Assembly (NCBI RefSeq): GCF_000742135.1
Contig: NZ_KN046818.1
Span: forward strand, 2,338,600 to 2,402,599
Reading direction: 5' to 3'
Source of the DNA: Klebsiella pneumoniae
GTDB taxonomy: Bacteria; Pseudomonadota; Gammaproteobacteria; Enterobacterales; Enterobacteriaceae
Length of the DNA stretch: 64,000 bases
Below the pieces are notes generated by a model. The model was not told the origin of the DNA. It saw nothing but the letters and a program-made list of their open reading frames with translations, and searched no databases. Each line of letters opens with the position of its first letter. Positions within the stretch are counted from its first letter, which is position 1. The translations under genes were made by a program, and so were the position numbers. Positions 7,744 through 22,725 of this stretch are shown here, piece after piece.

Positions 7744-8730
7744 TTACCAGGCATAAGCCTGGGGCGCTTCTCCCCCGGGGCCGGGCCAGATTTCGTCGAG
7801 ACAGCTCATGGTGTCGTCTGATAGCGTGATTGTCGTTGCGTGAAGCGCTTGCTGGAGTTGTTCGACCGTACGAGGCCCAATCAGTGGAGCGGTAACGACA
7901 GGATTCTGCAGGAGCCAGGCCAGCGCCACATCGGAAGGGGATTCGCCGAGGTCATCACATAATCCTTCATAGGCTTCCAGCTGCGGACGATAATCTTCAA
8001 TTTGGCGGGCAAACGCGGGCCTGGCACGGCGCCCGCTTGCCATCTTTTTCAGTACGCCGCCAAGCAGCCCTCCGGCAAGCGGGCTCCAGGGGATCAACCC
8101 CAGGCCAAAATGGCGGCATGCGGGAATGACCTCCAGCTCAATGGTGCGGGCTGTCAGATTATAAAAACTTTGCTCGGCGACCAGGCCCAGGAAATGACGG
8201 GCCGTGGCGACTGACTGCGCAGTCGCAATGTCCCAGCCCGCGAAATTGCTGCTACCGATATAAAGAACCTTTCCCTGCTGAACAAGCAGTTCCATGGCCT
8301 GCCAGATCTCTTCCCACGGCGTATGACGATCGATGTGATGCATCTGATAGACGTCAATATGGTCGGTCTTAAGCCGTCGCAAACTGTCCTCGCAGGCTTT
8401 GCGAATATGGTAAGCAGAAAGCCGGCGATCGTTCGGGCCCGGTCCCATAGGCTGATAGACTTTTGTCGCCAGAACGATGCGTTCACGGCGGCCACCCTGC
8501 TGAAGCCAGCGACCAATAATTTCCTCGGACAGCCCCGAGCCTTGCTGGATATCGGGAGATTGTTCAGTGCCATACACGTCTGCTGTATCAATGAAATTGA
8601 TACCCGCCTCAAGCGCCTCATCCAGAATGCGGGCGCTGGTCTTTTCGTCGGTGACGTCACCAAAATTCATGGTTCCGAGACAAAGGCGGCTGACTTTCAG
8701 GCCGGTGCGGCCAAGATGCGTATAGTTCAT
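7744..8730 (-). CDS. Aldo/keto reductase
   Basis: This intact 328-residue NADPH-type aldo/keto reductase has the complete catalytic tetrad: Asp48 and Tyr53 in FIDTADVYG, Lys90 in VLATKVYQP and a histidine at about 131 in YQMHHIDRH. The cofactor side shows IGSSNFAGWD, LIPWSPLAGGLL and APLIGPRTVEQL. It should reduce aldehydes or ketones in the cytosol. It is transcribed divergently from a LysR regulator 216 bp away, the usual arrangement for a LysR-controlled single target. The frameshifted reductase follows 46 bp downstream on the same strand, so the two may once have formed an operon. Confidence 0.92.
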   Translation of the reverse strand: MNYTHLGRTGLKVSRLCLGTMNFGDVTDEKTSARILDEALEAGINFIDTADVYGTEQSPDIQQGSGLSEEIIGRWLQQGGRRERIVLATKVYQPMGPGPNDRRLSAYHIRKACEDSLRRLKTDHIDVYQMHHIDRHTPWEEIWQAMELLVQQGKVLYIGSSNFAGWDIATAQSVATARHFLGLVAEQSFYNLTARTIELEVIPACRHFGLGLIPWSPLAGGLLGGVLKKMASGRRARPAFARQIEDYRPQLEAYEGLCDDLGESPSDVALAWLLQNPVVTAPLIGPRTVEQLQQALHATTITLSDDTMSCLDEIWPGPGGEAPQAYAW

Positions 8731-8946
8731 AAACGGCTCCGTTAGATGAGTGTTCCGCCCTGGCCTACCAGCCAGAGCGCATGATTTTCAAGAATAACGA
8801 AGCACAACGTGTACAGTGAGTGGACGTGCATGAATGGACTTGTGAAAAAAATTCAGCAATGGATTAGCCCTAATCGGTCTAAGGTGTATATCATTTCTTC
8901 ATCAACGCATTCGGGTTTTAACGCCGCATAAGGAAAACTATTCTGT

Positions 8947-9855
8947 ATGCAAATAAGCAGAGCTGATGTTGCCGATCTTATTTATTTCATGGCGATTGCA
9001 CGTCATCGCAGCTTCAGCCGTGCGGCAATTGAATTAGGCGTCAGTGCATCAGCGCTGAGTCATGCCCTGAAGGGACTGGAAACCCGGCTCGGAGTTCGCC
9101 TGCTTAATTGCACGACCAAGAGCGTCACCCCTACGGCAGCTGGTGAGGAACTGGTTCCGTCTGTTCTTCAGCCTTTCGACACCATAGAAGGCGCGCTTGA
9201 ATCGCTTAACCGGTATCGCAATACCCCTACCGGACGTATCCGCATCAATGCAGCCGTTGAAGCGGCAAATCTTTTGCTTGCGCCGGTCATGCCCGCTTTT
9301 ATGGATCGCTATCCCGATATTGAAATCGATATTGTGGCCAGCAACCGTATGGTTGACGTGACTGATGCGGGCTTCGATGCCGGCATCCGCTATGGTGGCA
9401 CCGTCCCGGAGGACATGGTTGCCCGGCGTTTATCTGCCGATATTCGCTGGGTTATCGCGGCCTCCCCTGATTACCTGGAACGCTACGGAACGCCTGAACA
9501 TCCGGATGATTTATTACACCATCGCTGCATCAGCAATCGTCTCGGTGACGATCGGGTTTATCGCTGGGAACTTGCGCGAGACGGCGAAACATACCAAATG
9601 ACAGTGCCAGGCTCAGTGACGGTCAATCATGCCGAAACGGGTCTGGTGGCCGTATTGGGCGGGGCTGGCCTGATGTATTTTCCGGAACCTCTTGTTGCAC
9701 CCTATGTCAAGGATGGACGGCTCCGTCTGGTGCTTACGGAATGGTCCCCACTGGAGGAAGGTTTTCATATCTATTATTCAAGCCGCCGGCAATTGCCGAC
9801 CGGGCTTCGCCTTCTGATTGAGTTCATACAGGAGGCCAGGCCGCTGGGGTTGTGA
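8947..9855 (+). CDS. LysR-family transcriptional regulator
   Basis: This is a 302-residue LysR protein of standard length. The N-terminal winged helix reads FMAIARHRSFSRAAIELGVSA then SALSHALKGLETRLGVRLL. A periplasmic-binding-like effector domain follows, with FDAGIRYGGTVPEDMVARRL and VAVLGGAGLMYFPEPLV. It belongs to the AaeR/DsdC-like group often found beside oxidoreductases. It is divergent from the aldo/keto reductase at 7744-8730, its likely target. The effector is unknown. Confidence 0.92.
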   Translation: MQISRADVADLIYFMAIARHRSFSRAAIELGVSASALSHALKGLETRLGVRLLNCTTKSVTPTAAGEELVPSVLQPFDTIEGALESLNRYRNTPTGRIRINAAVEAANLLLAPVMPAFMDRYPDIEIDIVASNRMVDVTDAGFDAGIRYGGTVPEDMVARRLSADIRWVIAASPDYLERYGTPEHPDDLLHHRCISNRLGDDRVYRWELARDGETYQMTVPGSVTVNHAETGLVAVLGGAGLMYFPEPLVAPYVKDGRLRLVLTEWSPLEEGFHIYYSSRRQLPTGLRLLIEFIQEARPLGL

Positions 9856-9860
9856 AATAG

Positions 9861-10808
9861 TGCCTCCATACTGAACGATGCGTTATCGGCTTTATCGCCC
9901 CGTCGCTTATTCAGAATGCTCAGTTGCAGGAAGCCGCAGGACTCGGCTATGTCCCTAATCTGCAGGCACGTAATCTGGCGTCGGTCCATTCCGATCTTAT
10001 TCTCGCCTTCGTTCCCACCTTCTCTTCGCCGGGTTTTTTGCCGGTCTCTGAAGCGCTGCAAAAAGTGCTGACCGAACGCGGATATACCATGATGTTTATG
10101 GAATCCGGGCATGACGGTCAAAGTGAACAAAAGACGTTTGAAAAAATGCTCGCCTATAACCCGGCGGCCATTATTCAGTTCAATATCGATACCATTGAGA
10201 GCTGCACCCAGTTGCTGGCCAACGTGGATGTTCCTATTCTGGAAATTGGCGCGCTAAATACCCACCCTGTGGGTATGTGCATCGGCGTGGATTACGGTAA
10301 GGCCGTAAAACAGATCGTGACTCATCTGGCCGACGCCTCATTAAAAAACATCGCACTGCTCTGTACCCCGGCTAATAACACATTGTTTCGCCAGTTGCTG
10401 AGCGGTTGGAATACGGCGATGCTCGCTCTGAACCGCTCCCCGCACCGGGTGGTAACCACGCATTTGCCATCCACCATCGCCACAGGCGTCAATATATTCA
10501 TGGATATGATGATTACCTGGGGCGATCTGGATGCGTTAATTTGCACGTCGGATGAAATGGCCTGTGGATGTATGATGGCCTGCCACAGTGCCGGCATCAA
10601 GGTGCCCAATACCGTAGCCATTGCGAGTTTAGGCGGAGGAGTGTTATCGACGGTCTGTTCCCCTGCCCTGACAACCGTTGAGTTTCCCTGGCATGACATT
10701 GGGGTGAAAGCCGGTAAAGCCCTTCTCGAACTGCTTAACGATAAGCCTGGTGAAAAGTTCATTGAAATTCCGTCAGTGCTCAAAGTCCGGGCCAGTACCG
10801 CGGCATGA
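9861..10808 (+). pseudogene. LacI/GntR-type regulator lacking its DNA-binding head
   Basis: About 300 codons encode the hinge and effector domain of a LacI-family regulator like the gluconate repressor. The frame begins in poorly matching sequence and reaches family similarity at EAAGLGYVPNLQARNLAS, which is normally near residue 50. It continues through a complete ligand-binding domain with DALICTSDEMACG and VPNTVAIASLGGG. The helix-turn-helix of about 45 residues is missing and a TAG lies at 9858-9860. The only start codon in the right place is a TTG at 9924 without a good ribosome site. It follows the LysR gene by a few bases, consistent with a deletion joint. Confidence 0.78.
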
Positions 10809-11395
10809 ACTTAGTATAGGGCGATAAGGCTTCCCCTATCTAGTATCTGTGTGTGGTAGCCAGGCTTTCTACCAGGAAGAATGTCTCTCTGCGAGAGTCC
10901 ATACAATAAATGCCCAGCTCATAAAGCAAAAAATAGTCGGGACAGTAGCGTTTTTTCGCTACTAAGCGGGTAAACCGCCAGCCTCATTTCCCGTTTATCT
11001 TGCCAGCCGCCCCAGGCGGTGATTTCGTAGCCTCGACCCGCCTGGGCGGCTTTGCACTGAAGTCCGTCTAGCGCCAGTCCAGGGTATACGATGTCTCCTA
11101 AGCCAGTTAGCAGGCAAAGCGCACCGCAATAATTCATTTGCACCGCCCTGGTGCCGCACATTCACCATGCCGCCCCCCGTCAGACATACCCTCATTACAT
11201 TAACCACTTGAATATAAAAACTTATTTTATATGGCACGTTTAATGCTCTTCGCTTGTATACCGCAATGTGGACAAGAACGTATGCCATATGGCCACAACA
11301 GGTCGCCAGTCTGCGGTCGCAACCTTCCCCTTTCTGTGAGGCATCCAGGGTGGATGCGTTTCACGGAAGCCTGCTTACTGAAAACGGAGAACAAC
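10809..11395. other. Gene-poor stretch with two strong hairpins
   Basis: No secure gene lies here. A hairpin with a 7-bp stem (AGTAGCG/CGCTACT, T6 loop) is at 10944-10963. A longer inverted repeat pairs AGCCGCCCCAGGCGG at 11005-11019 with CCGCCTGGGCGGCT at 11038-11051, one base being bulged. A short leftward frame, 11137 down to 10919, contains LLTGLGDIVYPGLALDG. This faintly recalls YceK-type lipoproteins, but the lipobox Cys is replaced by Leu, so it could be a decayed small gene. Confidence 0.45.
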
Positions 11396-12648
11396 ATGAC
11401 GACACTCAGTGAACCGTTGGTTACCCCGAAATATGGCAAATGGCGCCAGCTGGTGCTGGGTTTGATCTGTATGGCCGCCATTTCCAGTCCGCAATATGTC
11501 TGGACGCTGTTGACAAAACCCCTGGCCGCTAAACTGGGCGTGGGTTTGCCAGAATTGCAGGTGACCTTCTCCCTGCTGATCATCCTGCAGACCTTCTTTT
11601 CCCCTTTTCAGGGGCGGTTAGTGGAAAAATTTGGCCCACGGCGGCTGATCGCTATTGGCACGGTGATGGCGGGAATGAGCTGGGTGCTTTCCGCGCAGGT
11701 GAATGGCCTGGCAACGCTCTGGCTGGTTTATGGCTGCATGGGCGGCCTCGGGACCGGGATCGTCTACATCGGCGTTGTCGGCCTGATGGTCAAATGGTTC
11801 CCACAGCAGCGGGGATTTGCCGCCGGCGCGGTGGCGGCGGGCTACGGGATGGGGGCCATCATAACCACCTTCCCCATCTCCCTGTCGCTGACCACTAACG
11901 GCCTTGAACACACGATGGCGACTTTCGGGATCCTTTTCGCCCTCGTCGGCTTCCTCGCCAGTCAGGGGCTGAAGCTGCCGCCGCCCGCTGTCTCCCAGCC
12001 CGTCAGTCAGACGGTGGCGCAGAGCAGCAGATCGTTTACTTCCCGGGAAATGCTGCGCCAGCCGCTGTTCTGGCTGATGTTCGCCATGATGGCGATGATG
12101 TCGACTTCCGGGCTGATGGTCACTTCGCAGATGGCGGTGTTCGCCGAGGATTTCGGCATTAGCCAGGCGGTGGTGTTTGGCATGCGCTGCCGTTGGCGTT
12201 AACGATAGACCGCTTCACCAACGGATTGACCCGGCCGCTGTTTGGCTTTATTTCCGACCGCTTCGGCCGCGAGCAAACCATGTTTATCGCCTTTGCGCTG
12301 GAAGGCGTGGCGATGATGCTCTGGCTGGCGTGCCGGGAAGATCCGCTGCTGTTTGTCCTGCTCTCCGGGGTGGTGTTCTTTGGCTGGGGGGAGATCTTCT
12401 CTCTCTTCCCGTCGACACTCACCGATACGTTCGGCAGCGAGCATGCCGCCAGCAACTATGGCTGGCTGTATATTTCGCAGGGCATCGGGTCAATCTTTGG
12501 CGGTCCGCTGGCGGCACTGCTCTATCAGCACACTCACGGCTGGCATGTGGTCTTCAGCTGCGCGATTGGCCTTGATTTTGTCACCGCCGCCCTCGCGCTG
12601 TGGGTGCTAAAACCGTGGCGCGCGCGCTTTATCCGCCAGCATAGCTAA
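11396..12648 (+). pseudogene. Oxalate/formate-type MFS antiporter, frameshifted
   Basis: This is an OxlT-like major facilitator broken by a one-base deletion. The first frame (11396-12202) covers the first seven or so membrane helices, from MTTLSEPLVTPKYGKWRQL past FGPRRLIAIGTVMAG to VVFGM. There, ATGCGCTGCCG stands where ATGGCGCTGCCG is needed, one G missing near 12183. The other frame carries on in register with LALTIDRFTNG, GFISDRFGRE and GWLYISQGIGS to a normal C-terminus at 12648. The total would be 417 residues, the usual family length. The start has a GGAGA site. It is either a young pseudogene or a sequencing error; transport of oxalate or a similar carboxylate is inferred from the family. 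Confidence 0.85.
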
Positions 12649-12662
12649 TCGTCCGCCGGGCA

Positions 12663-12687
12663 GAAGTGACGGCTCGCCCGTCACTTC
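12663..12687. terminator. Convergent hairpin terminator-like element
   Basis: A perfect 10-bp stem (GAAGTGACGG with CCGTCACTTC, five-base loop) lies between the converging MFS and acetyltransferase genes and touches the stop of the latter. It could end transcripts from both sides, although T-runs are lacking. Confidence 0.5.
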
Positions 12688-13222
12688 ACTGATATTCGCT
12701 ACGCAACAGCGCATACAGGTACTCATCGCCCCACTCGCCTTTAAAAAAGATATTCTGCCGGTAATGCGCCTCGCGACGAAAGCCCAGCCCTTCCAGGAGT
12801 TTGATCGCGCCGGTATTGCGGGTGTCTACCACCGCTGTCAGCCGGTGGTGGGCTAACTGTTCAAAGAGTAAGGCCATCACCGCCCGCATGGCTTCCCGGG
12901 CATACCCCTGATGCTGATACGCAGGGGAAAAGGTCATCCCCAGCTCGGCTTGTCTGCCGTGATCTAAGAAGTGGATCCCCACATCTCCCGCCAGCGCACC
13001 GTTGGCCTGAATCTCTACGGCAAGCTGGAACCAGCTCTCATCCTCAGCAAAGGCCTGCGAACGCTGTTGTTCATAGAAGGCTGTCGCCTCTGTCATGCCG
13101 TAGTGGGTCCAGCTCTGAAAGCGGGCCACCTCCGGCAGATTGCGATAATGGCTGAAAGACGGCAGATCTTCCGTTCTGAACCGGCGCAGCAGCAGCCGGG
13201 GCGTGGTCAGGGGTAATTTCAT
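12686..13222 (-). CDS. GNAT N-acetyltransferase, RimJ/RimL type
   Basis: This 178-residue acetyltransferase has the start MKLPLTTPRLLLRRF typical of RimJ/RimL-like enzymes. The acetyl-CoA loop is in FSPAYQHQGYAREAMRAV, followed by DTRNTGAIKLLEGLGFRRE. I chose the ATG at 13222 because it begins the family motif and follows a purine-rich AGAAGAGAAG; an upstream ATG at 13309 would add unrelated residues. Its substrate could be an amino group on a protein or small molecule. It is convergent with the broken antiporter and has no obvious operon partner. Confidence 0.88.
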   Translation of the reverse strand: MKLPLTTPRLLLRRFRTEDLPSFSHYRNLPEVARFQSWTHYGMTEATAFYEQQRSQAFAEDESWFQLAVEIQANGALAGDVGIHFLDHGRQAELGMTFSPAYQHQGYAREAMRAVMALLFEQLAHHRLTAVVDTRNTGAIKLLEGLGFRREAHYRQNIFFKGEWGDEYLYALLRSEYQ

Positions 13223-13334
13223 CTCTTCTCTTCTTCTTAATGAGACGGGCAATGGCGGGGCCATCTTAACCTGCGCAGCCTCAACCCAGCCATCGCACTT
13301 CCTTGTCAATTTAATATAAAGTTAAATTTCGATA

Positions 13335-13523
13335 TTAAAATTTCACAAACCGATAAAACATTACAATAACAAATACGAAAAACAGGGGAACAAGCCAGAG
13401 AGGCGTCTCTGGAAAAAAGAGCCCTTGCGCCACGGCGAAGAGGATGGTCAGTACAGCAGGGCCATAAGATGAAATTAACGACCTGAATATTCTTCGCAGC
13501 AATCTTTTAATAAGATTCATCAT
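13335..13523 (-). CDS. Small two-helix membrane protein, hypothetical
   Basis: This 62-residue frame has a basic N-terminus (IKRLLRRIFRSL) followed by two hydrophobic segments, roughly residues 19-36 and 42-58, and a short basic tail ending FVKF. The composition and lysine/arginine placement fit a small inner-membrane protein. I do not recognise a family. It lies between the acetyltransferase and the TetR gene, in DNA that is AT-richer than its neighbours. Confidence 0.5.
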   Translation of the reverse strand: MMNLIKRLLRRIFRSLISSYGPAVLTILFAVAQGLFFPETPLWLVPLFFVFVIVMFYRFVKF

Positions 13524-13861
13524 AGTTATCGGATCATCCTGGTAATGATGTCTGTAATACCCTCATTCGATGCCTGTCCTGCTGTAACCGTCTCAGACTT
13601 CAGAAATAATGCCTATCAGAAAGTACATCATTCACAGCTTATGTGTATAAAGGTCCGAATAATACGCCGGTTCAGAAACATAAGGACATGACTTGTGTAT
13701 GTCTACGCAATCTTGTTTTTATTGGGGGAACCGACGCCGCATAAACCGCGGCTGATTTACTTTTTGCCCGTCTGGCGGCAAGATCCGGCATAATGCACCG
13801 CTGTCGCAGGACGGCCGTGTCACCGGCAATCGTGACAGCGAACCATTCGACAGGAAAACGC

Positions 13862-14440
13862 ATGAAGCCAAAACAAGCGGACATTCTCCGCCACGCCAGC
13901 ACGCTTTTTAATCGCGAAGGATATCAGTCGCCCAGCATCGAGCGGATTGCTGAACATGCTGGCATCTCCAAAATGACCTTCTACCGCTATTACGCCGATA
14001 AAGAGGCGCTCATTCTGGCTATCCTCAAGCAGAAAGAGAGCGAATTTATGCAGGATTTGGCGCAGATCACCGCGGATAAAGCCAGCGCGCGGGAAAAGCT
14101 GTTTGCCGTGTTCGACTATTATCATCGCTGGTTTACCTGCGAAACGTTCCACGGCTGCATGTTTACCCGCGCGCTGTTTGAATATGGCGCGTCATCGCCG
14201 GCGATCCGGGAGCAGTGTTCCCGCTTCAAGTCGCTCCTCTGGCAGTTCTTCCGCGATATTCTCCTGCTGGTGTTAAAACCAGAGCCTGCCGAGCGGGTCG
14301 CCATGATGATGGTGATGCTCATCGATGGCGCTATCGCCGCCCAGCAGGCCGAGTCCGCCGAATGTCGGGAGATCCCGCCGGGGATGACCGCCTGGAGCGC
14401 GGCCAAAGCGCTTATTTACTCAGAAGGCGGTACGCTGTGA
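13862..14440 (+). CDS. TetR/AcrR-family transcriptional regulator
   Basis: This 192-residue repressor has its helix-turn-helix at residues 8-50 (HASTLFNREGYQSPS, then IERIAEHAGISKMTFYRYYADKE). The C-terminal ligand domain contains WFTCETFHGCMFTRALFEYG, typical of a TetR group near oxidative or exporter genes. The start at 13862 is chosen over an earlier GTG-type frame because it begins directly before the domain. Its last 25 bases overlap the converging haem-oxygenase-like gene. A 17-bp palindrome upstream of that gene, at 15542-15558, is the best candidate operator. Confidence 0.88.
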   Translation: MKPKQADILRHASTLFNREGYQSPSIERIAEHAGISKMTFYRYYADKEALILAILKQKESEFMQDLAQITADKASAREKLFAVFDYYHRWFTCETFHGCMFTRALFEYGASSPAIREQCSRFKSLLWQFFRDILLLVLKPEPAERVAMMMVMLIDGAIAAQQAESAECREIPPGMTAWSAAKALIYSEGGTL

Positions 14441-15516
14441 GATGATAAGCTGCCGCCCAGCGACTGCAGGGCCGCCAGCAGACCATCATAGTAATCGTTG
14501 CAGGTTTGCAGACGCAGCGCGGCGCCAAAGAAGACCTCCTCCATAGCCGCCGGATGTTTTTTGCCAATCGGCACAATCACATTGTTCAGCCAGCCATCCG
14601 CATGACCGATGTCGACCGTGATATGTTCGGCATAGTAATGCACGTCGCGCTCGGAAAGCCCAATCCGCCGACAGCCCGCCACCAGTTTTTCATACTGCGG
14701 CGGGTCGAGCAGCTCGGTCATGGCCATCACGCCCAGTGATTTGTAGTAATGCTGACGGTTTACGCCGCCCAGCATAAAGGCGTTATACCCGGCCAGCCCC
14801 TGCCACTCGTACAAATGGGCAAAATGATTGTCCGGTAAGGCGATATTTCGCCGCTTCAGTAAATCCTTATACAGATTAACGTGGGTGATCTCGGTGCTGC
14901 CCTGGCCTATCTCATCCCACAGATTTTGCGCAATCTCAGCGCGGGTTTCCGGCAGCGAGCCCACCAGCCCCATCGCCACCAGATCGAAGAAAAGCAGATT
15001 GAGGGCGCTGTCGCTTTTGAAGAAATAGTCGATTTGCGCCGCAGAGGCCTCGCTGGCAAGGAAATCGAACAGCGGATGATGAGACGCCGGGTGCTGCTGG
15101 CATAAGGCGCGCAGTTCGTCGACGATATTGCCGGCGTTAAGCATTGGTCTCTGGTGGTGGAAGCGTTTGCTTTCCGCCCGCAGCCACTCAGACTCGATGT
15201 AATTTCTGATCCCGGAAAGCAGCGGATGAAACTGATTGGCAGCCGCTGGCGAGAGCGGGTCGGCAAGCCAGGACTGATAAAGAATGAACAGCGCGTGGTG
15301 CGCACGCTTTTTGGCCTGTGGATCGTCAGCGGAGAAGGCGCGGATGCAGGTATTCTCAGTGAGATGCCAGGCTCTGTCGGCCACCAGCGGGTTGGCCGTC
15401 AGCTTCAGCGACAGCGCGTTGCTGTGCAGAAGCTGGTCAATTAACTCATCCAGCGCCAGCCTGGCCATCACCGCGGTCTGGTCGCTTCCAATCACCCCAT
15501 TATCTGTGTTACGCAT
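14416..15516 (-). CDS. Iron-containing redox enzyme, haem-oxygenase-like (HDO) fold
   Basis: This 366-residue protein matches the Haem_oxygenas_2 type of iron-containing redox enzymes. Likely metal ligands are in LWDEIGQGSTEITHVNLY (Glu202 or Glu209, His212) and YYAEHITVDIGHADGWL (His298, Asp302, His305). Other members of this fold use a di-iron centre to oxidise amines or fatty acids, or to cleave C-C bonds. The N-terminal 110 residues are less conserved. It sits between a TetR gene, which it overlaps tail to tail, and a divergent EamA exporter, with a perfect palindrome in its promoter. The reaction is unknown. This is the least characterised enzyme of the window. Confidence 0.82.
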   Translation of the reverse strand: MRNTDNGVIGSDQTAVMARLALDELIDQLLHSNALSLKLTANPLVADRAWHLTENTCIRAFSADDPQAKKRAHHALFILYQSWLADPLSPAAANQFHPLLSGIRNYIESEWLRAESKRFHHQRPMLNAGNIVDELRALCQQHPASHHPLFDFLASEASAAQIDYFFKSDSALNLLFFDLVAMGLVGSLPETRAEIAQNLWDEIGQGSTEITHVNLYKDLLKRRNIALPDNHFAHLYEWQGLAGYNAFMLGGVNRQHYYKSLGVMAMTELLDPPQYEKLVAGCRRIGLSERDVHYYAEHITVDIGHADGWLNNVIVPIGKKHPAAMEEVFFGAALRLQTCNDYYDGLLAALQSLGGSLSSHSVPPSE

Positions 15517-15541
15517 GATTTATCCCTGTGAAATACATGGC

Positions 15542-15558
15542 TACTATACGGTATAGTA
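15542..15558. promoter_or_regulatory. 17-bp perfect palindrome, candidate TetR operator
   Basis: TACTATAC-G-GTATAGTA is an exact inverted repeat located 26-42 bp upstream of the HDO-type gene and about 160 bp before the EamA gene. Size and symmetry fit a TetR-dimer operator. The regulator would be the TetR protein encoded at 13862-14440. Binding is inferred. Confidence 0.65.
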
Positions 15559-15717
15559 CCGTCCATAATGCGGCAACGTAAATTTCACACGTGTTGTCAA
15601 TTTACTGTTTATTAAAGAATTTAAATGAATACAATAAAAACCACTAAAATATTATTGATATTATAAAAACAATAACATTACCATTCAGTACAGTGACAAA
15701 CGACACAAGGAATCATC

Positions 15718-16632
15718 ATGCCTTATCTGTTACTGACGCTGGCGGCTCTGTTCTGGGGCGGGAATTATGTTGTCGGGCACGTGCTGGTGCAGGGCGTGGA
15801 TCCGATCCTGATGACCGAAGCGCGCTGGGCGCTGACGGCGCTGCTGCTGGGCCTGCTCTACCGACGGCAAATCGCCGGCAGTCGCCACCTGCTGCGGGCA
15901 AACGCGCCAGCGGTGGTGGTGCTAACCCTCTGCGGCCAGGTCAGTTTCCCGCTCACGCTCTATATTGGCCTGCAAACCACCTCCGCGCTCAACGCCGCCA
16001 TCTATATGTCCGCCACGCCGAGCATGGTACTGTTGATTAACCGACTATTTTTCCGCGATCCGGTATCAGGGCGTAACTGGCTCGGAGTGGCTTTTAGCAC
16101 CCTCGGCGTGATGATCCTCTTATTTCAGGGAAATCCGCTGCACGCCGCCTCTCTGCACACCTTTGCCATCGGCGACCTGTGGGCGATGGGGTCGGCGCTG
16201 AGCTGGGCGCTCTACTGTTCGCTGTTACGTCTGAAGGACCGCCGAATCCCGGCGAATGGCTTTGTCGCCGTCAGCTCGCTGCTCGGCGCCCTGATCCTGG
16301 TGCCAATCGTCATCTTCTGGCTGATGCGCCACCCGGCGCAGGACTGGGCAGCCTGGCGCGAGCCGTTTTTCCTCAGCGGCCTGGCGTATCTGGTAATTTT
16401 CCCATCGTGGCTGGCATACCTGTTCTGGAACAAAGGTATCGCCACCATTGGCGCCACGCGGGGCGAAATTTACACCCACATCATCCCCCTCTCCGGCGGG
16501 GTGTTGAGCATCCTGTTCCTGCATACCCAGCCGCATGCCTGGCATCTGTTTAGCGCGCTGTTCATCATGGTGGGGATTGGGATCTGCTCGCTGGAGAAAC
16601 GCCAGGCGGCGTCTATTCGTCTGCGTGACTAA
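15718..16632 (+). CDS. EamA/DMT-superfamily transporter
   Basis: This 304-residue inner-membrane protein has ten predicted helices in two EamA repeats. The first starts LLLTLAALFWGGNYVVGHVL, and the second is around FAIGDLWAMGSALSWALYCSLL. The C-terminus is a basic tail. Such carriers usually export amino acids or metabolites. It is divergent from the HDO-type gene across the palindromic operator, so the two are probably co-regulated and the carrier may move the enzyme's substrate or product. A palindrome-containing, AT-rich 200-bp leader precedes it. Confidence 0.9.
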   Translation: MPYLLLTLAALFWGGNYVVGHVLVQGVDPILMTEARWALTALLLGLLYRRQIAGSRHLLRANAPAVVVLTLCGQVSFPLTLYIGLQTTSALNAAIYMSATPSMVLLINRLFFRDPVSGRNWLGVAFSTLGVMILLFQGNPLHAASLHTFAIGDLWAMGSALSWALYCSLLRLKDRRIPANGFVAVSSLLGALILVPIVIFWLMRHPAQDWAAWREPFFLSGLAYLVIFPSWLAYLFWNKGIATIGATRGEIYTHIIPLSGGVLSILFLHTQPHAWHLFSALFIMVGIGICSLEKRQAASIRLRD

Positions 16633-16639
16633 TGTATGC

Positions 16640-16665
16640 GACCGGGCGCCTGGCCACGCCCGGTC
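16640..16665. terminator. Convergent hairpin between EamA and MFS genes
   Basis: GACCGGGCG pairs with CGCCCGGTC (9 bp, eight-base loop) exactly between two converging genes. It is followed by ACAAAAG rather than T's, so a bidirectional terminator is likely but not ideal. Confidence 0.5.
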
Positions 16666-16672
16666 ACAAAAG

Positions 16673-17905
16673 TTAACGGCTGGTGGAGAGCGGCTGGTGA
16701 TGTCCCGCTCCTGCGGATTGGATCACCCGGCCTTCGCGACCAAAAAAGGTCAGGACGGTAATGACAATCGCCACCGTCCCGGCCACCAGGGCCATTGCCA
16801 GGCCGTAGTTATGCCCATGATGCTGGGCGATTGATGCCTGGAGAGTGGCATTCACCGAAGCCAGCAAATTACCCAGCTGGTAGACGAAGCCGGGCAGCAC
16901 CGCCCGGGTGTTGGCCGGGACCAGTTCATTGAGCCAGGTGGGGATCACCCCCCAGGCCCCCTGGACCATAAACTGCATCAGGAACGCCCCCGCCCCCAGC
17001 GCCAGCGAGCCGCTGGCGAAAGCCCACAGTGGAATGACCGGCAGCGCCAGCAGGGCGGCGATCATAATCGCTTTGCGTCGGCCAATCTTCTCCGACAGCG
17101 AACCGAAGAACACTCCACCAATGATCGAGGCGATGTTATAGCAGACCGCGATGATGCTGACCGTTTTAGGCTCGAAGCCGTGCTGAACTTTCAAAAAGAC
17201 CGGGTAAAGATCCTGCGTCCCGTGAGAGAAGAAGTTGAAAGCCGCCATCAGCACCACCAGGTACAGGCACAGCTTCCAGTGGCTACGCAGTACCGGCAGC
17301 AGGGCCGTACTCTCTTTATTCTGCCTGGCCGCCTGCCAAACCGGAGACTCCTCGACGCAGAAATAGATAAACGGCAGCAGCAGCACCGGCGCGGCGCCAA
17401 TGACAAACATCCCGCGCCAGCCGAGTTGTTCAAACAGCAGCCCATAGGCGACGGCCGCCAGCAAATAGCCGAAGGGGTATCCCGCCTGGAACAGGCCGGA
17501 CATCAGGCCGCGCGAGCGGTCGGGGATCGTCTCCATCGCCAGCGAAGAGGCCACGCCCCAGATCCCGCCCATCGCCACGCCGTACAGCACCCGCAGCAGG
17601 AAAAACAGCATCAACGACGGCGCGGCGGCGGAGAGCAGCTCAAAAGCCGAGAAGAACACAATGTTGAGCATCAGGATTGGTTTGCGACCAAACTTCTCCG
17701 CCGCCCTGCCGAAAATTAGCGCGCCGACGGGCCGCACGGCCAGAGTCAGCAGAATCGCCAGGGTGACCTCCTCAAGGTCGACATGAAACGAGTGGGCGAT
17801 ATCGCTCAGTAAAAAAACTAACAGGAAAAAGTCGAAAGCATCGAGCGTCCAGCTTAAAAAACTGGCTATCGCCGCATTACGCTGTCGTGAGGTCCAGCCG
17901 TGCAT
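16673..17905 (-). CDS. MFS transporter, sialate/carboxylate (SHS-like) type
   Basis: This 410-residue carrier has twelve helices. Its start WTLDAFDFFLLVFLLSDIA and the loop FGRAAEKFGRKPILMLN are typical of the sialic acid/lactate (SHS/NanT-JEN) branch of the major facilitators, as is the repeat FGSLSEKIGRRKA in the second half. It should take up a carboxylate by proton symport. It is divergent from the FAD/NAD(P)-binding gene, with a 14-bp palindrome in the shared promoter. The substrate is unknown. Confidence 0.87.
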   Translation of the reverse strand: MHGWTSRQRNAAIASFLSWTLDAFDFFLLVFLLSDIAHSFHVDLEEVTLAILLTLAVRPVGALIFGRAAEKFGRKPILMLNIVFFSAFELLSAAAPSLMLFFLLRVLYGVAMGGIWGVASSLAMETIPDRSRGLMSGLFQAGYPFGYLLAAVAYGLLFEQLGWRGMFVIGAAPVLLLPFIYFCVEESPVWQAARQNKESTALLPVLRSHWKLCLYLVVLMAAFNFFSHGTQDLYPVFLKVQHGFEPKTVSIIAVCYNIASIIGGVFFGSLSEKIGRRKAIMIAALLALPVIPLWAFASGSLALGAGAFLMQFMVQGAWGVIPTWLNELVPANTRAVLPGFVYQLGNLLASVNATLQASIAQHHGHNYGLAMALVAGTVAIVITVLTFFGREGRVIQSAGAGHHQPLSTSR

Positions 17906-18048
17906 CTTGTCATCCCTATCCCGACGGCATTGCCGGGAGTGTGCGCGGCGTCCAGCAGAGCGAGCTGGGGTTACCGCTTGTGTAAATTGTTTGTATAGAA
18001 AGTTGCTCTTTTGTTAATTACACCCCTTTTACGACAATCGGCAAGTTT

Positions 18049-18062
18049 ATTAGCATGCTAAT
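18049..18062. promoter_or_regulatory. 14-bp palindrome resembling a SlyA/MarR operator
   Basis: ATTAGCATGCTAAT is a perfect palindrome between the divergent MFS and FAD-protein genes. Its core TTAGCATGCTAA differs by one base from the SlyA consensus TTAGCAAGCTAA as I recall it. No MarR gene lies nearby, so a global SlyA-type regulator would have to act here. Confidence 0.5.
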
Positions 18063-18180
18063 TTGTTTCAAATTGCGTGTTCCCCTCACCGGTTCGGTAA
18101 TTTTCGACCAGAATTAAAACTAGGTTCGCTTAAGCGAAGCGTCATCAATGCCGCATCTGCCCACAGGAAGGGAGAGAATC

Positions 18181-19789
18181 ATGAAGAGAATTGCCATCGT
18201 CGGCGTGGGGCCGACGGGGATTTACACCTTTTATGAACTGGTGAAGCGCGGTGAGCCGCTGGCCATCACCCTGTTTGAAAAAGAGGCGCAGGCCGAGGTG
18301 GGTATGCCCTACAGTGACGATAATACCGCGGCGCAAATGCTGGCCAATATTGCCAGCATTGAGATCCCCCCCCATCGACCTGACCTACCTGCAATGGCTG
18401 CAGCAGCAAAGCGATGACTGGCTGGCGGCGCGCGGGCTTGAACGGCACGCCCTGCATGAGCGCCAGTTTCTGCCGCGGGTGATCCTCGGCGAATACTATC
18501 GCGACCGTTTTCTTTACCTCGTTGAGCGGGCCCGGGACGTCGGCTTTGTGATTAGCGTTTGTGAATCCTGTGAAGTCACGGATATTGCGGTTCAGTCCAC
18601 CGGGATCGCCATCCACACCGATAGTGCAGCAGACCCGGTAATCGTCGACCTGGTGGCGATTGCCACCGGCCATCTGTGGCCTGAAGAAGAGCGCGCCAGC
18701 CGACAGTACTTCCCCAGCCCGTGGACCGGCCTGATGGAGGCCCGCATTGCCCCCTGCCGGGTGGGGATCCTTGGGACTTCATTAAGCGCGATTGATGCCG
18801 CCGTGGCGGTAGTGGCCCGCCACGGCGTTTTCCATACCGAGGACGACAAAACGACCCATTTTTCCCTCCATCCAGGCAGCGAAGCGCTGGAGATCACCCT
18901 GATGTCACGCCACGGCGTGCTGCCGGAGGCCGATTTTTACTGCCCGATCCCGTGGGAGCCGCTGGAGATTGCCACTCCCGCCGCCCTCGAAGCGGCCATT
19001 GCGGAGGGTAGCGACGCTCTGTTAGATCGGATTTTTGAGCTGATCGTTAAAGAGCTGGAATATGCTGCCCCCGACTGGAGCGAGGCGATCGGGCTTCGTC
19101 AGCTGACGCCTGACAGTATCGCCGACGCCTGGTTTGCCGACCGCCTCACCCATGACCCCTTTCAGTGGGCGCAGCGCAATCTGCAGGAGGTGGAGCGCAA
19201 TAAGCGCGAACACCACACGGTGCCCTGGCGCTATGCCATTCTGCGCCTGCATGAGGCGATTGAAACCTTGGTGCCGCAGTTCAACGACGCGGACAGCCGT
19301 CGCTTCCGCCAGGGCCTCGCCCGGGTATTTATCGATAACTACGCCGCCATTCCGCCGGAGTCCATACGTCGGCTGCTGGCCCTGCACCGGGCTGGCATTC
19401 TGCGGATCCTGACGCTGGGCGAAGATTATGAGCTGCAGCGGGAGCCTGACCGGACGCTGATTGTTCATCATCGTCAGCGCTGCGAATTCGATGTCTTTAT
19501 CGATGCCCGCGGACAAAAAGCGCTGAAAACCCGGGATCTGCCCTTCCCTTCACTGCGCCAGCAGCTGCTGGCCTGCGGCGACGACATTCCGGACGTCGGT
19601 GATGACTACACGCTGCAGGCGCCGGAGACAGTGCGCGGCCGGGTCGCCTTCGGCGCCCTTCCCTGGCTGATGCACGATCGCCCCTTTGTGCAGGGGCTGA
19701 CGGCCAGCGCCGAGATTGGCAGCGCAATGGCCCGCGCCGTGTCGCAGCAGGCCGCCGGCCGACGGCGCCGTCTCTGGTATATCGAATAG
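18181..19789 (+). pseudogene. FAD/NAD(P)-binding protein, frameshifted at a C8 tract
   Basis: The gene starts MKRIAIVGVGPTGIYTFYEL, a Rossmann dinucleotide fold, and would encode about 535 residues of the FAD-NAD(P)-binding family. At 18366-18373 a run of eight C's shifts the frame after ASIEIPP. With seven C's it would read on as IDLTYLQWLQQQSDDWL and continue unbroken to the stop at 19789. A second Rossmann-like block is at PCRVGILGTSLSAIDAAVA. A ribosome site GGGAGAG precedes the ATG. The break could be a real mutation, slippage-based on/off switching, or a sequencing error. The protein would be a cytosolic redox enzyme of unknown substrate next to an MFS carrier and an OYE-type enzyme. 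Confidence 0.85.
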
Positions 19790-19896
19790 CGGAGCGCTTA
19801 AGCGCAATATCCGAATACTGGGGGGGTGAACAGGCGTGCTATAAACAGCAACTGTCCGTCCCCTGCACGACCACGTTTAACATTTACGAGGTATTC

Positions 19897-20997
19897 ATGA
19901 GTCATCTTTTTAGCGCGACGCGAATTGGTCAACTCACCCTTGATAACCGTATCGTTATCGCCCCGATGTGTCAGTACTCCGCCGACGAGGGTAAGGCGAC
20001 CTCCTGGCACCGGATCCATCTTGGCCAACTGGCTTTCTCCGGCGCCGGCCTGTTAATTCTGGAAGCCACGGCGGTAGATCCTGCGGGGCGTATCTCCCCG
20101 GGGGATCTGGGGCTGTGGGATGATGAAACCGAAAACGCCCTGCGCGGCGTAGTCGAAGATATTCGGGCCTGGTCGCCGATCCGTCTGGGGATCCAGCTGG
20201 GTCATGCCGGACGCAAGGCATCCTGCGCCGCCCCGTGGCAGGGAGGCCATCAGCTGGCGCTCAACGATGGTGGCTGGCAGACCGTCGCCCCTTCCGCCGT
20301 GGCGTTTCACGATGGCGATCGCGCCCCCGCTGAACTGAGCCATGCCGATATGGCGCGCATCAAAGCGGCCTTCGTCGCCAGCGCGCTGCGCGCCCAGCGG
20401 CTGGGCTTTGAGCTGATTGAACTGCACGCCGCCCACGGCTATCTGCTGCACCAGTTTCTCTCGCCGCTCAGCAACCAGCGCCGCGACGAGTACGGCGGTT
20501 CGCTGGAGAACCGAATGCGCTATCCGCTGGAAGTCTTTAAGGCGATCCGCGAGGCAGTGGGCAACACCATGGCGGTGGGCGTCAGGCTGTCGGCTACCGA
20601 CTGGGTCGAAGGCGGCTGGGACTGCGAGCAGTCCATTAAGTTTAGCCAGCAGCTGGAAACGCTGGGCAGTGACTATATTCACGTCTCCAGCGGCGGTTTG
20701 TCGCCGCAGCAGGCGATCACCGTTGGGCCGGGATACCAGTTGCCTTTCGCCCGCGATATTCGCCAGCAGGTAGCCATCCCGGTGATTGGCGTGGGGCTGA
20801 TCACCGACCCGCAGCAGGCGGAAGCGGCGCTGGAGAATGGCGATGCCGACCTGATCGCCCTCGCCCGCGCGGTACTCTACGATCCGCACTGGCCGTGGCA
20901 CGCAGCGGCCAGCCTTGGCGCCCAGGTCCGTGTGCCGTCGCAGTATTTGCGCTCGGAGCCGCACGGCCTGAAAGGCACCCTGCTGCCAAACCGTTGA
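19897..20997 (+). CDS. NADH:flavin oxidoreductase, YqjM-like old yellow enzyme
   Basis: This 366-residue FMN enzyme of the OYE family, YqjM class, shows IVIAPMCQYSADEG near the N-terminus (the Cys/Tyr pair that tunes the flavin), GIQLGHAGRKAS, ELIELHAAHGYLLHQFLSPL with the substrate His pair, YGGSLENRMRYP, and VGLITDPQQAEAALENGDADLIALARAVLYDPHW for the FMN phosphate. It reduces activated C=C bonds with NAD(P)H. It follows the broken FAD protein by 107 bp on the same strand and may share its function. A hairpin follows the stop. Confidence 0.93.
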   Translation: MSHLFSATRIGQLTLDNRIVIAPMCQYSADEGKATSWHRIHLGQLAFSGAGLLILEATAVDPAGRISPGDLGLWDDETENALRGVVEDIRAWSPIRLGIQLGHAGRKASCAAPWQGGHQLALNDGGWQTVAPSAVAFHDGDRAPAELSHADMARIKAAFVASALRAQRLGFELIELHAAHGYLLHQFLSPLSNQRRDEYGGSLENRMRYPLEVFKAIREAVGNTMAVGVRLSATDWVEGGWDCEQSIKFSQQLETLGSDYIHVSSGGLSPQQAITVGPGYQLPFARDIRQQVAIPVIGVGLITDPQQAEAALENGDADLIALARAVLYDPHWPWHAAASLGAQVRVPSQYLRSEPHGLKGTLLPNR

Positions 20998-21012
20998 ACC
21001 CACGGCGGGCAT

Positions 21013-21039
21013 AAAAAAGGGGTATCGTAAGATACCCCT
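21013..21039 (-). terminator. Rho-independent terminator (minus strand)
   Basis: A perfect 9-bp stem, AGGGGTATC with GATACCCCT and a four-base loop, is followed on the minus strand by six T's. It fits a terminator for leftward transcripts coming from the lipoprotein gene. For the rightward oxidoreductase gene, which ends just before it, the hairpin lacks a T-run. Confidence 0.7.
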
Positions 21040-21065
21040 GAGCAGGATGTTATTGCGGTCCATGT

Positions 21066-21173
21066 GCCGGGCGGCGACGACGCCTTGCCCGGCCTACAAA
21101 AGGGTGATACCCGGTCATTGCGCAGCCAACCCGCCCCCTGCGTAGGCCCGCGCAAGCGCAGCGCCGCCGGGCA
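21066..21173. repeat. REP pair (BIME-like) in inverted orientation
   Basis: Two REP-type palindromic units flank a short spacer. One is at 21066-21097 (GCCGGGCGGCG ... TGCCCGGCCTAC) and one in the opposite direction at 21141-21173 (GTAGGCCCGCGCAAGCG ... CGCCGCCGGGCAA). This is the common enterobacterial intergenic BIME arrangement between convergent genes. Confidence 0.75.
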
Positions 21174-21230
21174 ATCTATCAGGCTCCGCTCCCTATATTT
21201 CCGGGCGGCGGGTCAGGCAAACACCGCGAG

Positions 21231-21713
21231 TTACTGCTGTGCGGCGGGCGGCGCGGCGTTCTGTTTATCCTTCGCGATACTGTCCTGGATGGCTTTGGTT
21301 TTGCTCGCCGCTTCAGCCGAGAGCTGATTGGCGTCACCGATGGCGTTGTCTTTGATCTGACCCGCCTCTTTGACTATGCGGTCACTTTCCTGCTTTGCGT
21401 TCTGCTTCACCGCATCGGCCTGGGCTTTCGCCTGCTGGGCGATGGCGTCCGCCTTCTTGTCCGCCTCGGCCTTGATGGCGCTGGCCTGATCCTTCAGGCG
21501 ATCGGCCTCGGCGTCAGCCTGGCTTTTCAGCGTATCGATTTGCTTATCCGCATCCTGTTTAATTGCCTGCGCTTTATCCGCCGCGGCATCCTTCATCTGC
21601 TCCGCATTATCTTTAGCCTTATCCAGTTTGTTATCAACTGTCGACGCATCGTCGCAGCCAAACAGGGTCAGGCACAGGGCGGAAGCGAGTAGTGTTTTAT
21701 TCCAGAGTTTCAT
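21231..21713 (-). CDS. Alanine/lysine-rich coiled-coil lipoprotein
   Basis: This 160-residue protein has a signal peptide MKLWNKTLLASALCLTLFGC ending in a lipobox (LFGC), so the Cys at residue 20 should be lipid-modified. The mature part is a long heptad-like Ala/Lys/Asp/Gln helix (KAKDNAEQMKDAAADKAQAI and similar), ending in a short PPAAQQ tail. I chose the ATG at 21713 because AAGGGA lies seven bases upstream and the signal peptide starts there. It resembles small envelope-spanning coiled-coil lipoproteins. No enzymatic role is expected; it may be structural. It stands alone with its own terminator. Confidence 0.83.
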   Translation of the reverse strand: MKLWNKTLLASALCLTLFGCDDASTVDNKLDKAKDNAEQMKDAAADKAQAIKQDADKQIDTLKSQADAEADRLKDQASAIKAEADKKADAIAQQAKAQADAVKQNAKQESDRIVKEAGQIKDNAIGDANQLSAEAASKTKAIQDSIAKDKQNAAPPAAQQ

Positions 21714-21828
21714 CAGCATTCCCTTACAGGTTAAGTCGTTATCCAGCTTTGTGATTCGTTGCATTAATAGCATTCACATTTTATATATAAACGCTCAGCC
21801 GATAGAGTCAAGGCGACAGCGCCGATTG

Positions 21829-22725
21829 TCAGTCCAGGGTCGCTACCAGCCCCTGCAGCCAGTCGGCAAAGACCCGAACCTTATGCGAGAGATGCCGGTG
21901 CGGATAGAGCAGCGACAACGGTCGACGCGGCGCCGGAAAGTCCGGCAAAACTTCCACCAGTTGCCCGCTGTCGATATAAGGTTGCAAAAAGAAACGCATC
22001 CCCTGCAGCATCCCCAGCCCCGCCAGCCCGGCAGCAGTAAAGACTTCAGAGTTGTCCAGCACCAGTTTACCGGGAATGGCGATCTGCCTGATGCCCTCCG
22101 GGGTCTGGAATCGCCAGGGCATAATCTGCCGGCTGCTGCTGTTCACCCAGTTCACCGCCAGATGCGACTGCAGGTCCTCCAGCGTCGCGGGCGCCCCATA
22201 GCGCGCCAGATAGCCCGGACTGGCGCAGGTGGTTAACGCCACCTCCCCCAGTGAACGCGCCACATAGTCGCCATCCTCAAGATCCCCCACCCGCAGCAGG
22301 CAATCCAGACCATCGCGCAGCATATCCCGGCGTACGTCGGAGCTGCTGAGGACAATCTCCACCTCCGGATGGGCCTGATAAAAATCCGGCAGATGCGGGA
22401 TCACCAGCAGCCGGGCAAAGGCGATCGGCATATCAACGCGCAGCTGACCGCGGATCGGCCGGTCCGGCGCGAACGACTCCAGCAGATCGTCGGCCTGGGA
22501 GAGCAACGGTTTGCTGCGACGATAAAACTCTTCCCCCTCCGGCGTAAGATACAGACGTCGGGTGGTGCGCTGCAGCAGCCGGACCCCGCTCTCCTGCTCC
22601 AGCTGCTGCAGTGCTTTGGTCACCGCCGGTCGGTGGATCTGCAAATTTTCCGCCGCCTGGGCAAAGCTGCCGGCATCGACGATTTCAATAAAAATTTTAA
22701 TATTTTCAAACAGATTCATTTGCAT
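21829..22725 (-). CDS. LysR-family transcriptional regulator
   Basis: This is a 298-residue LysR regulator. The DNA-binding part is FIEIVDAGSFAQAAENLQIH then AVTKALQQLEQESGVRLLQR. The effector domain contains GLDCLLRVGDLEDGDYVARSL and FTAAGLAGLGMLQGMRFFL, typical of the large CrgA/AaeR-like group. It is divergent from the nitronate monooxygenase gene with a 168-bp AT-rich spacer, making that gene its probable target. Confidence 0.92.
   Translation of the reverse strand: MQMNLFENIKIFIEIVDAGSFAQAAENLQIHRPAVTKALQQLEQESGVRLLQRTTRRLYLTPEGEEFYRRSKPLLSQADDLLESFAPDRPIRGQLRVDMPIAFARLLVIPHLPDFYQAHPEVEIVLSSSDVRRDMLRDGLDCLLRVGDLEDGDYVARSLGEVALTTCASPGYLARYGAPATLEDLQSHLAVNWVNSSSRQIMPWRFQTPEGIRQIAIPGKLVLDNSEVFTAAGLAGLGMLQGMRFFLQPYIDSGQLVEVLPDFPAPRRPLSLLYPHRHLSHKVRVFADWLQGLVATLD

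Follow-up and report, generated by a model that had tools for sequence, protein, structure and literature searches.

We describe a compact gene cassette in a 64,000-nucleotide stretch of the Klebsiella pneumoniae genome (contig NZ_KN046818.1; hereafter, the window), in which a haem-oxygenase-like diiron oxidase/oxygenase (HDO) related to the N-oxygenase HrmI is accompanied by its own TetR-family regulator and an EamA-family transporter. This HrmI-like oxygenase cassette is a real, conserved association; its probable role is to produce an uncommon small molecule, conceivably a modified amino acid, and to secrete it. A first-pass annotation of the window had proposed a small self-contained system of regulator, enzyme and exporter, and this proposal is supported by the genes staying linked in divergent genomes and on plasmids, with variable flanks and gene order and with EamA proteins of two clades. 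The three open reading frames (ORFs) and a promoter palindrome sit where that annotation placed them, and Pfam agrees with all three family assignments, with scores above the gathering cut-offs. The features are as follows:

13862..14440, + strand: TetR/AcrR-family regulator, 192 amino acids (aa), probable cassette repressor; TetR_N (PF00440), 49.7 bits against a gathering cut-off of 24
14416..15516, - strand: HrmI-like HDO, 366 aa; Haem_oxygenas_2 (PF14518), 123.7 bits against 28.9
14602..14913, - strand: coding stretch for the six predicted metal ligands of the HDO, E202, H212, E268, H298, D302 and H305 (three histidines and three carboxylates, 3H/3C)
15517..15717, no strand: intergenic stretch of 201 bp with 30% GC, the divergent promoter region common to HDO and EamA
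15542..15558, no strand: 17-bp perfect palindrome TACTATACGGTATAGTA, 26-42 bp upstream of the HDO start codon
15547..15558, - strand (HDO strand): 12-bp conserved core TACNATANNGTA, candidate TetR operator or promoter element, in 8/8 triads, chosen post hoc
15718..16632, + strand: EamA/DMT (drug/metabolite transporter)-family transporter, 304 aa, presumed exporter; EamA (PF00892), 124 bits against 28.2

The TetR and HDO genes are convergent, with 25 bp of overlap at their 3' ends. The intergenic stretch separates the divergent HDO and EamA genes, and its 30% GC compares with 58% for the window. All three genes look to be under purifying selection, with dN/dS of about 0.05-0.15 between the window and three related loci. 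The window cassette is 98.3% and 97.6% identical to those in two Klebsiella pneumoniae records.

To follow the cassette across genomes, we assembled 28 opened loci that contain either an HDO at least about 40% identical or the broken remains of such a gene; among the plasmid records of this identity, H3 and H4 (near-identical to the window) and the Salmonella records H9 and H10 (like H7) were left unopened. The co-occurrence check that the first-pass annotation had called for finds a conserved neighborhood, with TetR/HDO/EamA triads in 8 of the 28 loci (the window and L012-L018). Pairs of HDO and EamA on one strand are commoner still, at 12/28 (L019, L050-L052, L054-L057, L059, L070, L071 and L102), and have no TetR like that of the window alongside. 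The other arrangements are TetR-HDO adjoining phosphonate-type genes (L058, and L053, where the HDO is broken), TetR-HDO-halogenase-LysE (L068 and L069), TetR-HDO adjoining a TqaL-like cluster (one locus, L072), an HDO with neither partner (L101), and broken HDOs next to TetR (L020) or EamA (L073). Altogether, an exporter, either an adjacent EamA or LysE one gene on, accompanies the HDO in 23 of the 28 loci, and TetR does so in 14; the regulator is not a constant member of the cassette, a point on which the first-pass annotation is weaker.

That the genes are mere chance neighbors with no joint function appears extremely improbable. EamA and TetR genes are abundant, and the HDO of L101 stands alone, but the linkage is kept in most of the 28 loci with different flanks and orders, including on plasmids, which largely refutes, and led us to reject, a chance grouping. 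The flanks of the triad are as in the window in L012 and L013 and different in L014-L018; conversely, the major facilitator superfamily (MFS) and old-yellow-enzyme genes that flank the window triad on the right are present without it in two genomes, G001 (L116) and G005 (L117). Judged by these flanks, the triad travels as a unit. Four plasmid records matching the HDO come from Klebsiella.

The distribution of the HDO itself is narrow. Counting the genome of the window in each sample, matches were detected in 10 of 60 relatives, all of the same genus; in 6 of 394 genomes of the order, with identity above 30% only in the window genome and one other, and with two matches doubtful at about 1e-4; in 14 of 295 genomes of the family, one of them doubtful (G483, 5.7e-4); in 16 of 392 genomes of a second family draw searched with another query; and, by profile, in 8 of 398 genomes of the phylum, two doubtful. 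These low counts indicate that the HDO is rare and patchy outside Klebsiella. Eight of the ten same-genus genomes carry the triad; G001 has an HDO-EamA pair without TetR, and in G017 a TetR gene accompanies a broken HDO, with no match to EamA in the vicinity. A decayed triad is seen in Raoultella planticola (L020, 8087-8526), where HDO fragments and a full-length TetR match occur with no EamA match.

The enzyme at the center of the cassette had been labeled an iron enzyme of unknown reaction. The family assignment holds, but the reaction is not wholly obscure, the closest match being to an N-oxygenase: HrmI is the best hit of the window HDO in both sequence and model, and the predicted model has a full-length HrmI-like fold. 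In the profile search, HrmI scored 195.4 bits, with RohS (45.9) and SznF (36.9), two other N-oxygenases of the HDO family, forming a second tier; SznF differs in its cupin domain (so named in the PDB), none being found by Pfam in the window HDO. The six ligands, assigned through alignment with HrmI and the 3H/3C description in an HDO review (PMC13108848), are invariant in all 30 rows of alignment A1, which represents 30 of 120 listed proteins (133 were found among 8000 scored candidates), and are kept in two BelK-type enzymes, L061 and L075. Of the positions that do not vary in at least 95% of 41 window-clade rows, 39 are common with these two enzymes, including all six ligands, R254, R335, D178 and H142. 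UndA-, CADD- and PqqC-like functions were considered and set aside, their matches being far weaker than that of HrmI. The protein cluster to which the HDO belongs (P0001) has 2893 member sequences in the protein collection.

HrmI and BelK are L-lysine N6-oxygenases of hormaomycin and belactosin biosynthesis that convert L-lysine to 6-nitronorleucine. They resemble the window HDO in the same predicted 3H/3C ligands, in the N-terminal extension and in length (362 aa against 366 in the window), and differ in context, the window HDO standing alone with TetR and EamA, with no BelL/HrmJ-like or DapF gene. A BelK/HrmI-type locus is found on an Agrobacterium vitis plasmid, with an HDO (E 1.7e-102 to HrmI) followed by a PF10014 2-oxoglutarate (2OG) enzyme and dapF; this 2OG enzyme has matches at about 5e-63 to 9dq0 and 8jms (PDB name 'BsmA domain containing protein'), which we take to be BelL homologues. 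The same trio of matches is present in L061.

We tentatively favor the reading that this is a minimal 'make and export' cassette, in which the HDO N-oxygenates a free amino acid and EamA exports the product. The TetR repressor would be bound near the HDO start in the HDO/EamA promoter and released by a ligand. With O2 and a diiron site, the HDO would oxidize a small amine, for which a free amino acid is the likeliest candidate and nitrogen the likeliest position, as in the action of HrmI and BelK on L-lysine; and the product, a hydroxylamine, oxime or nitro compound, would leave the cell through the EamA protein. Of this scheme, the data show the gene linkage, the family and conserved ligands of the enzyme, the HrmI-like fold of its model and the conserved promoter core, whereas the operator role for TetR, the amino-acid substrate, the N-oxygenation and the export of the product are inferred.

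Several observations weigh against this reading. The window HDO matches HrmI with 131.8 bits at about 26-27% identity, well below the 346 bits of the A. vitis enzyme that serves as the yardstick for orthologues. Compared with the two BelK-type enzymes, 18 positions are fixed differently in the window clade, two of them being lost acids, with N173 and F177 where both BelK-type enzymes have D. No match to a BelL- or DapF-like gene was detected at E 1e-5 next to the window HDO (8001-22000), whereas both are found in L061 and L075. With regard to the partners, the HDO of L101 (54% identity) has neither exporter nor TetR nearby and lies inside the HDO-EamA class of the HDO tree, in which each labeled class forms one side of a branch. 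Conversely, 13 opened EamA loci unlinked to an HDO (L103-L115; 50-62% identity by BLASTP) have no HDO match at 1e-5, and there are unlinked EamA relatives, 52-62% identical to that of the window, that are closer to it than those of the HDO-EamA pairs (46-50%). In one of these loci (L103, 4975-6592), an EamA gene (62%) converges with a TetR gene 52% identical to that of the window with no HDO, so that TetR and EamA can form a pair without the enzyme. Finally, the perfect 8+1+8 symmetry of the palindrome is limited to the window among the eight triads.

Given the lower identity, the fixed differences and the lack of BelL/DapF-like neighbors, strict orthology with BelK/HrmI was rejected. The window HDO clade is separate from the BelK/HrmI-type enzymes in the HDO tree, which was built without 102 of the 120 listed proteins, the broken L020, L053 and L073, and L060, L062 and L078-L083. 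The 18 fixed differences, including N173 and F177, mean that lysine specificity is not implied. From the shared and divergent positions, we infer the same kind of chemistry as in the BelK types on another substrate, which is probably not exactly that of HrmI.

A variant of the cassette hypothesis keeps the exporter and changes the chemistry: the HDO would cleave or desaturate an amino acid in the manner of BesC, PolF or MboA, yielding, for example, an allylglycine-type or dehydro amino acid for export by EamA. According to the review (PMC13108848), about a dozen members of the expanding HDO superfamily are functionally validated, and amino acid cleavage or desaturation of this type is among their reactions. 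BesC, an HDO that fragments 4-chloro-lysine, resembles the window enzyme in the HDO fold and in amino-acid chemistry, and plasmid-borne relatives of the window HDO adjoin a putative iron (Fe)/2OG halogenase. In particular, the Klebsiella plasmid HDOs accompanied by this halogenase and LysE recall the BesD/BesC pair. BesC is nevertheless a far poorer match than HrmI in both sequence and model, and its NCBIfam model NF042919 gives 35.8 bits for the window HDO against a cut-off of 500. We consider cleavage or desaturation rather unlikely.

These halogenase loci belong to two Klebsiella plasmids typed as conjugative (L068 and L069), with HDOs of 49-50% identity and the order TetR-HDO-halogenase-LysE. 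The 303-aa putative halogenase (L068, 8098-9009; L069, 8099-9010) is annotated as hypothetical. In L068 its closest similarities include PDB 9pv1, 'biotin halogenase BtnX' (E 4.2e-78), and the halogenase of CurA (7.6e-23), and it keeps WHIG where BtnX and CurA have WHVG, an HxG pattern that we take to be the Fe/2OG halogenase signature. In Pantoea, this halogenase-LysE pair comes after an HDO-like protein of 268 aa that has no Pfam match, and in Acinetobacter soli (L122) it occurs without an HDO match. In the Pantoea sp. SS70 plasmid (L121, 5119-5925), all six ligand positions of the HDO-like protein are replaced, which makes it a possible pseudo-enzyme.

Some triads carry further candidate partners. 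Next to EamA in L014, L015 and L017 come a Bcr/CflA-like MFS gene and then a BioF/KBL-like pyridoxal phosphate (PLP) synthase; the synthase scores 478 bits (L014) and 471 bits (L017) with NF005697, against a cut-off of 342, and that of L015 is recognized by similar sequence only. An amino-acid permease comes after the synthase, identified by PF03222 (270 bits) in L014 and by similarity of its start in L017. MFS and permease genes with no synthase among the listed ORFs are found in L016, and the MFS gene only in L018. The complete series after EamA, MFS, BioF-like synthase and permease, spans 3530-7124 in L014. The window genome has no orthologue of the L014-type synthase (best matches, 25-26%). 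Among the 150 records matched by the synthase are 23 from Klebsiella plasmids, one of which, when opened (L120, 7258-11480), contains an EamA-like remnant followed by the MFS, synthase and permease genes. A link to biotin, evoked by the BtnX-like halogenase and the BioF-like synthase, was considered; no biotin role is claimed because the halogenase-LysE pair exists without an HDO match in L122. A literature search for 'biotin halogenase' returned no paper, and BtnX was not among the matches listed.

Phosphonate genes raise the possibility that the substrate is not an amino acid but 2-aminoethylphosphonate (AEP) or a related amine. After the HDO of L053 (8184-10640) come genes for a phosphoenolpyruvate (PEP) mutase, scoring 393.7 bits against a cut-off of 319.55, and for an AEP transaminase (NF010006, 326.8 bits against 296); in L058 (8378-9535), an AEP-transaminase-like gene after the HDO scores 244.6 bits, below the same cut-off of 296. 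A phosphonate pathway that includes the HDO is possible in these loci. This context is, however, confined to 2 of the 28 loci, one with a broken HDO; no phosphonate gene match was found next to the window HDO or in the HDO-EamA class; and the TetR-HDO module could just adjoin a phosphonate cluster. An aminophosphonate or other non-amino-acid amine as the substrate in the window seems quite improbable.

The first-pass annotation left it open whether the system makes or disposes of a metabolite. TetR beside an exporter is a common efflux arrangement, and a TetR-EamA pair without an HDO exists in L103, and relatives of the cassette reside on plasmids typed as conjugative, all of which would fit detoxification and efflux, with the HDO destroying an incoming toxic compound, itself the TetR ligand, and EamA expelling it. 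Against this stands the review (PMC13108848), in which HDOs serve the biosynthesis of secondary metabolites or cofactors. Several HDO relatives, moreover, adjoin biosynthetic-looking genes, as in Paraburkholderia (L072), where the neighbors of TetR-HDO are a PGM1-type peptide ligase and a 2OG enzyme of TqaL type (E 3.5e-98 to 7eeh). Such neighbors, which may work with their HDOs, point to the biosynthesis of small molecules from amino acids or amines and not to detoxification, which we regard as distinctly unlikely; 'makes' is thus better supported than 'disposes of'. A broader extension of the make-and-export reading, possible but doubtful, is that these are mobile 'one-enzyme' secondary-metabolite cassettes of Enterobacteriaceae that have escaped description, in which a TetR-regulated HrmI-like N-oxygenase would yield, from a free amino acid, a nitro or otherwise N-oxygenated amino acid for direct secretion by EamA or LysE, and the enzyme would be re-partnered with a halogenase, phosphonate enzymes or a BioF-like synthase for different products. 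Klebsiella pneumoniae would then be secreting an N-oxygenated amino acid that is not known from this species.

The likeness of EamA and LysE proteins to DMT/EamA and LysE amino-acid exporters is one of family membership: the best NCBIfam match of the window EamA is TIGR00950 (carboxylate/amino acid/amine transporter; 83.5 bits, below the cut-off of 230.2), and a phmmer search for solved-structure relatives gave none at E 1 or better. We placed 21 EamA proteins linked to an HDO and 13 free ones in a tree, where the linked proteins are distributed over two clades; the window-type clade adjoins free EamA genes (join support only 83/84), and the second holds two free proteins inside. The starred branches force at least two label changes and the tree as drawn needs four, with the caveat that long branches meet at free_L112 and that one pairing followed by several losses is also possible. 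The two clades together with the LysE variant suggest a functional tie between the enzyme and export that does not depend on the exporter employed. Exclusive co-occurrence was looked for and not found, as unlinked EamA genes occur in HDO-less genomes: relatives of the window EamA (E <=1e-40) are present in 38 of the 295 family genomes, compared with 14 of the same 295 for the HDO, and 12 of the 13 genomes with opened unlinked EamA loci have no HDO match, G001 having its HDO-EamA pair elsewhere. Among the 13 genomes with non-doubtful HDO matches, 11 have HDO and EamA side by side and 2 (G400 and G499) are of the phosphonate type. In 18 more distant loci (L060-L067, L074-L083), no window-like EamA was detected at E 1e-5; other EamA/DMT genes are, however, annotated in the A. 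vitis record, at distances of about 4 and 7 kb.

Regulation of the cassette by TetR is likely because TetR is repeatedly linked to the HDO. The adjacent TetR proteins are 80-98% identical to that of the window in the seven other triads, and homologues of 35-45% identity adjoin the HDO in L053, L058, L068, L069 and L072. The palindrome reported in the common promoter is present exactly as described, at 15542-15558, and TACTATACGGTATAGTA is the sole match in the window with up to 3 mismatches (mean in shuffles, 0.01) and the only exact match in the 5.5-Mb genome. With 3 mismatches, there are 6 genomic sites against 18 for the reversed control, that is, no enrichment elsewhere, and accordingly no further TetR targets are claimed. 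The proposal that it is the TetR site fares less well in its original form: 8/8 arm positions pair in the window, 7/8 in L013, 6/8 in L012 and 3-4/8 in the other five triads. What is conserved is a core. The intergenic regions of the eight triads have diverged except for start-proximal stretches and the core ATACGkTATmGTAC. The 12-bp TACNATANNGTA (HDO strand), which lies inside the palindrome, recurs in all eight and upstream of the HDO in the plasmid loci L068 and L069, which have TetR and HDO but not EamA in common with the triads. This 12-mer, picked after viewing the alignment, is not found in the other 18 of the 28 loci, including four with TetR (L020, L053, L058 and L072), nor in L103; the 13 unlinked loci, of about 10.5 kb each, contain one match in total (L109). 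Given its resemblance to a -10 box, it could be a promoter rather than an operator. With only the 12-bp core conserved and not the perfect palindrome, the element is a candidate operator, to which TetR may bind, or a candidate promoter element. A second element lies directly upstream of the EamA start (15686-15695), reading CAGTACAGTG in the window and mostly TAGTACAGT in the other triads, and is a possible second site.

The first-pass annotation had named this the best candidate in the window for an undescribed system. Among the matches listed in a literature search, judged by titles and abstract beginnings and with subscription papers outside its scope, none describes a TetR/HDO/EamA module, which is not proof of novelty; the enzyme class itself is already known. 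Because the HDO and its exporter form a small and conserved pair, in a genus commonly associated with humans, the case would be unusually easy to deorphanize, with one enzyme, one exporter and one regulator. If an N-oxygenated or halogenated amino acid is indeed made, it would add a small-molecule output to Klebsiella, and a single oxygenase gene would have been recombined with various partners and exporters.

The three proteins matched none of the PADLOC families at E 0.001, and an anti-phage defense system was discarded as a candidate. Among the more distant HDO relatives, two cyanobacterial ones (32-34% identity; L074, 5293-8891, and L076, 3164-6891) are located on plasmids directly after NACHT NTPase genes. 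Elsewhere in the window, an FAD-NAD(P)-binding protein (PRK09897) appears to be split over two overlapping frames (18148-18417 and 18251-19789).

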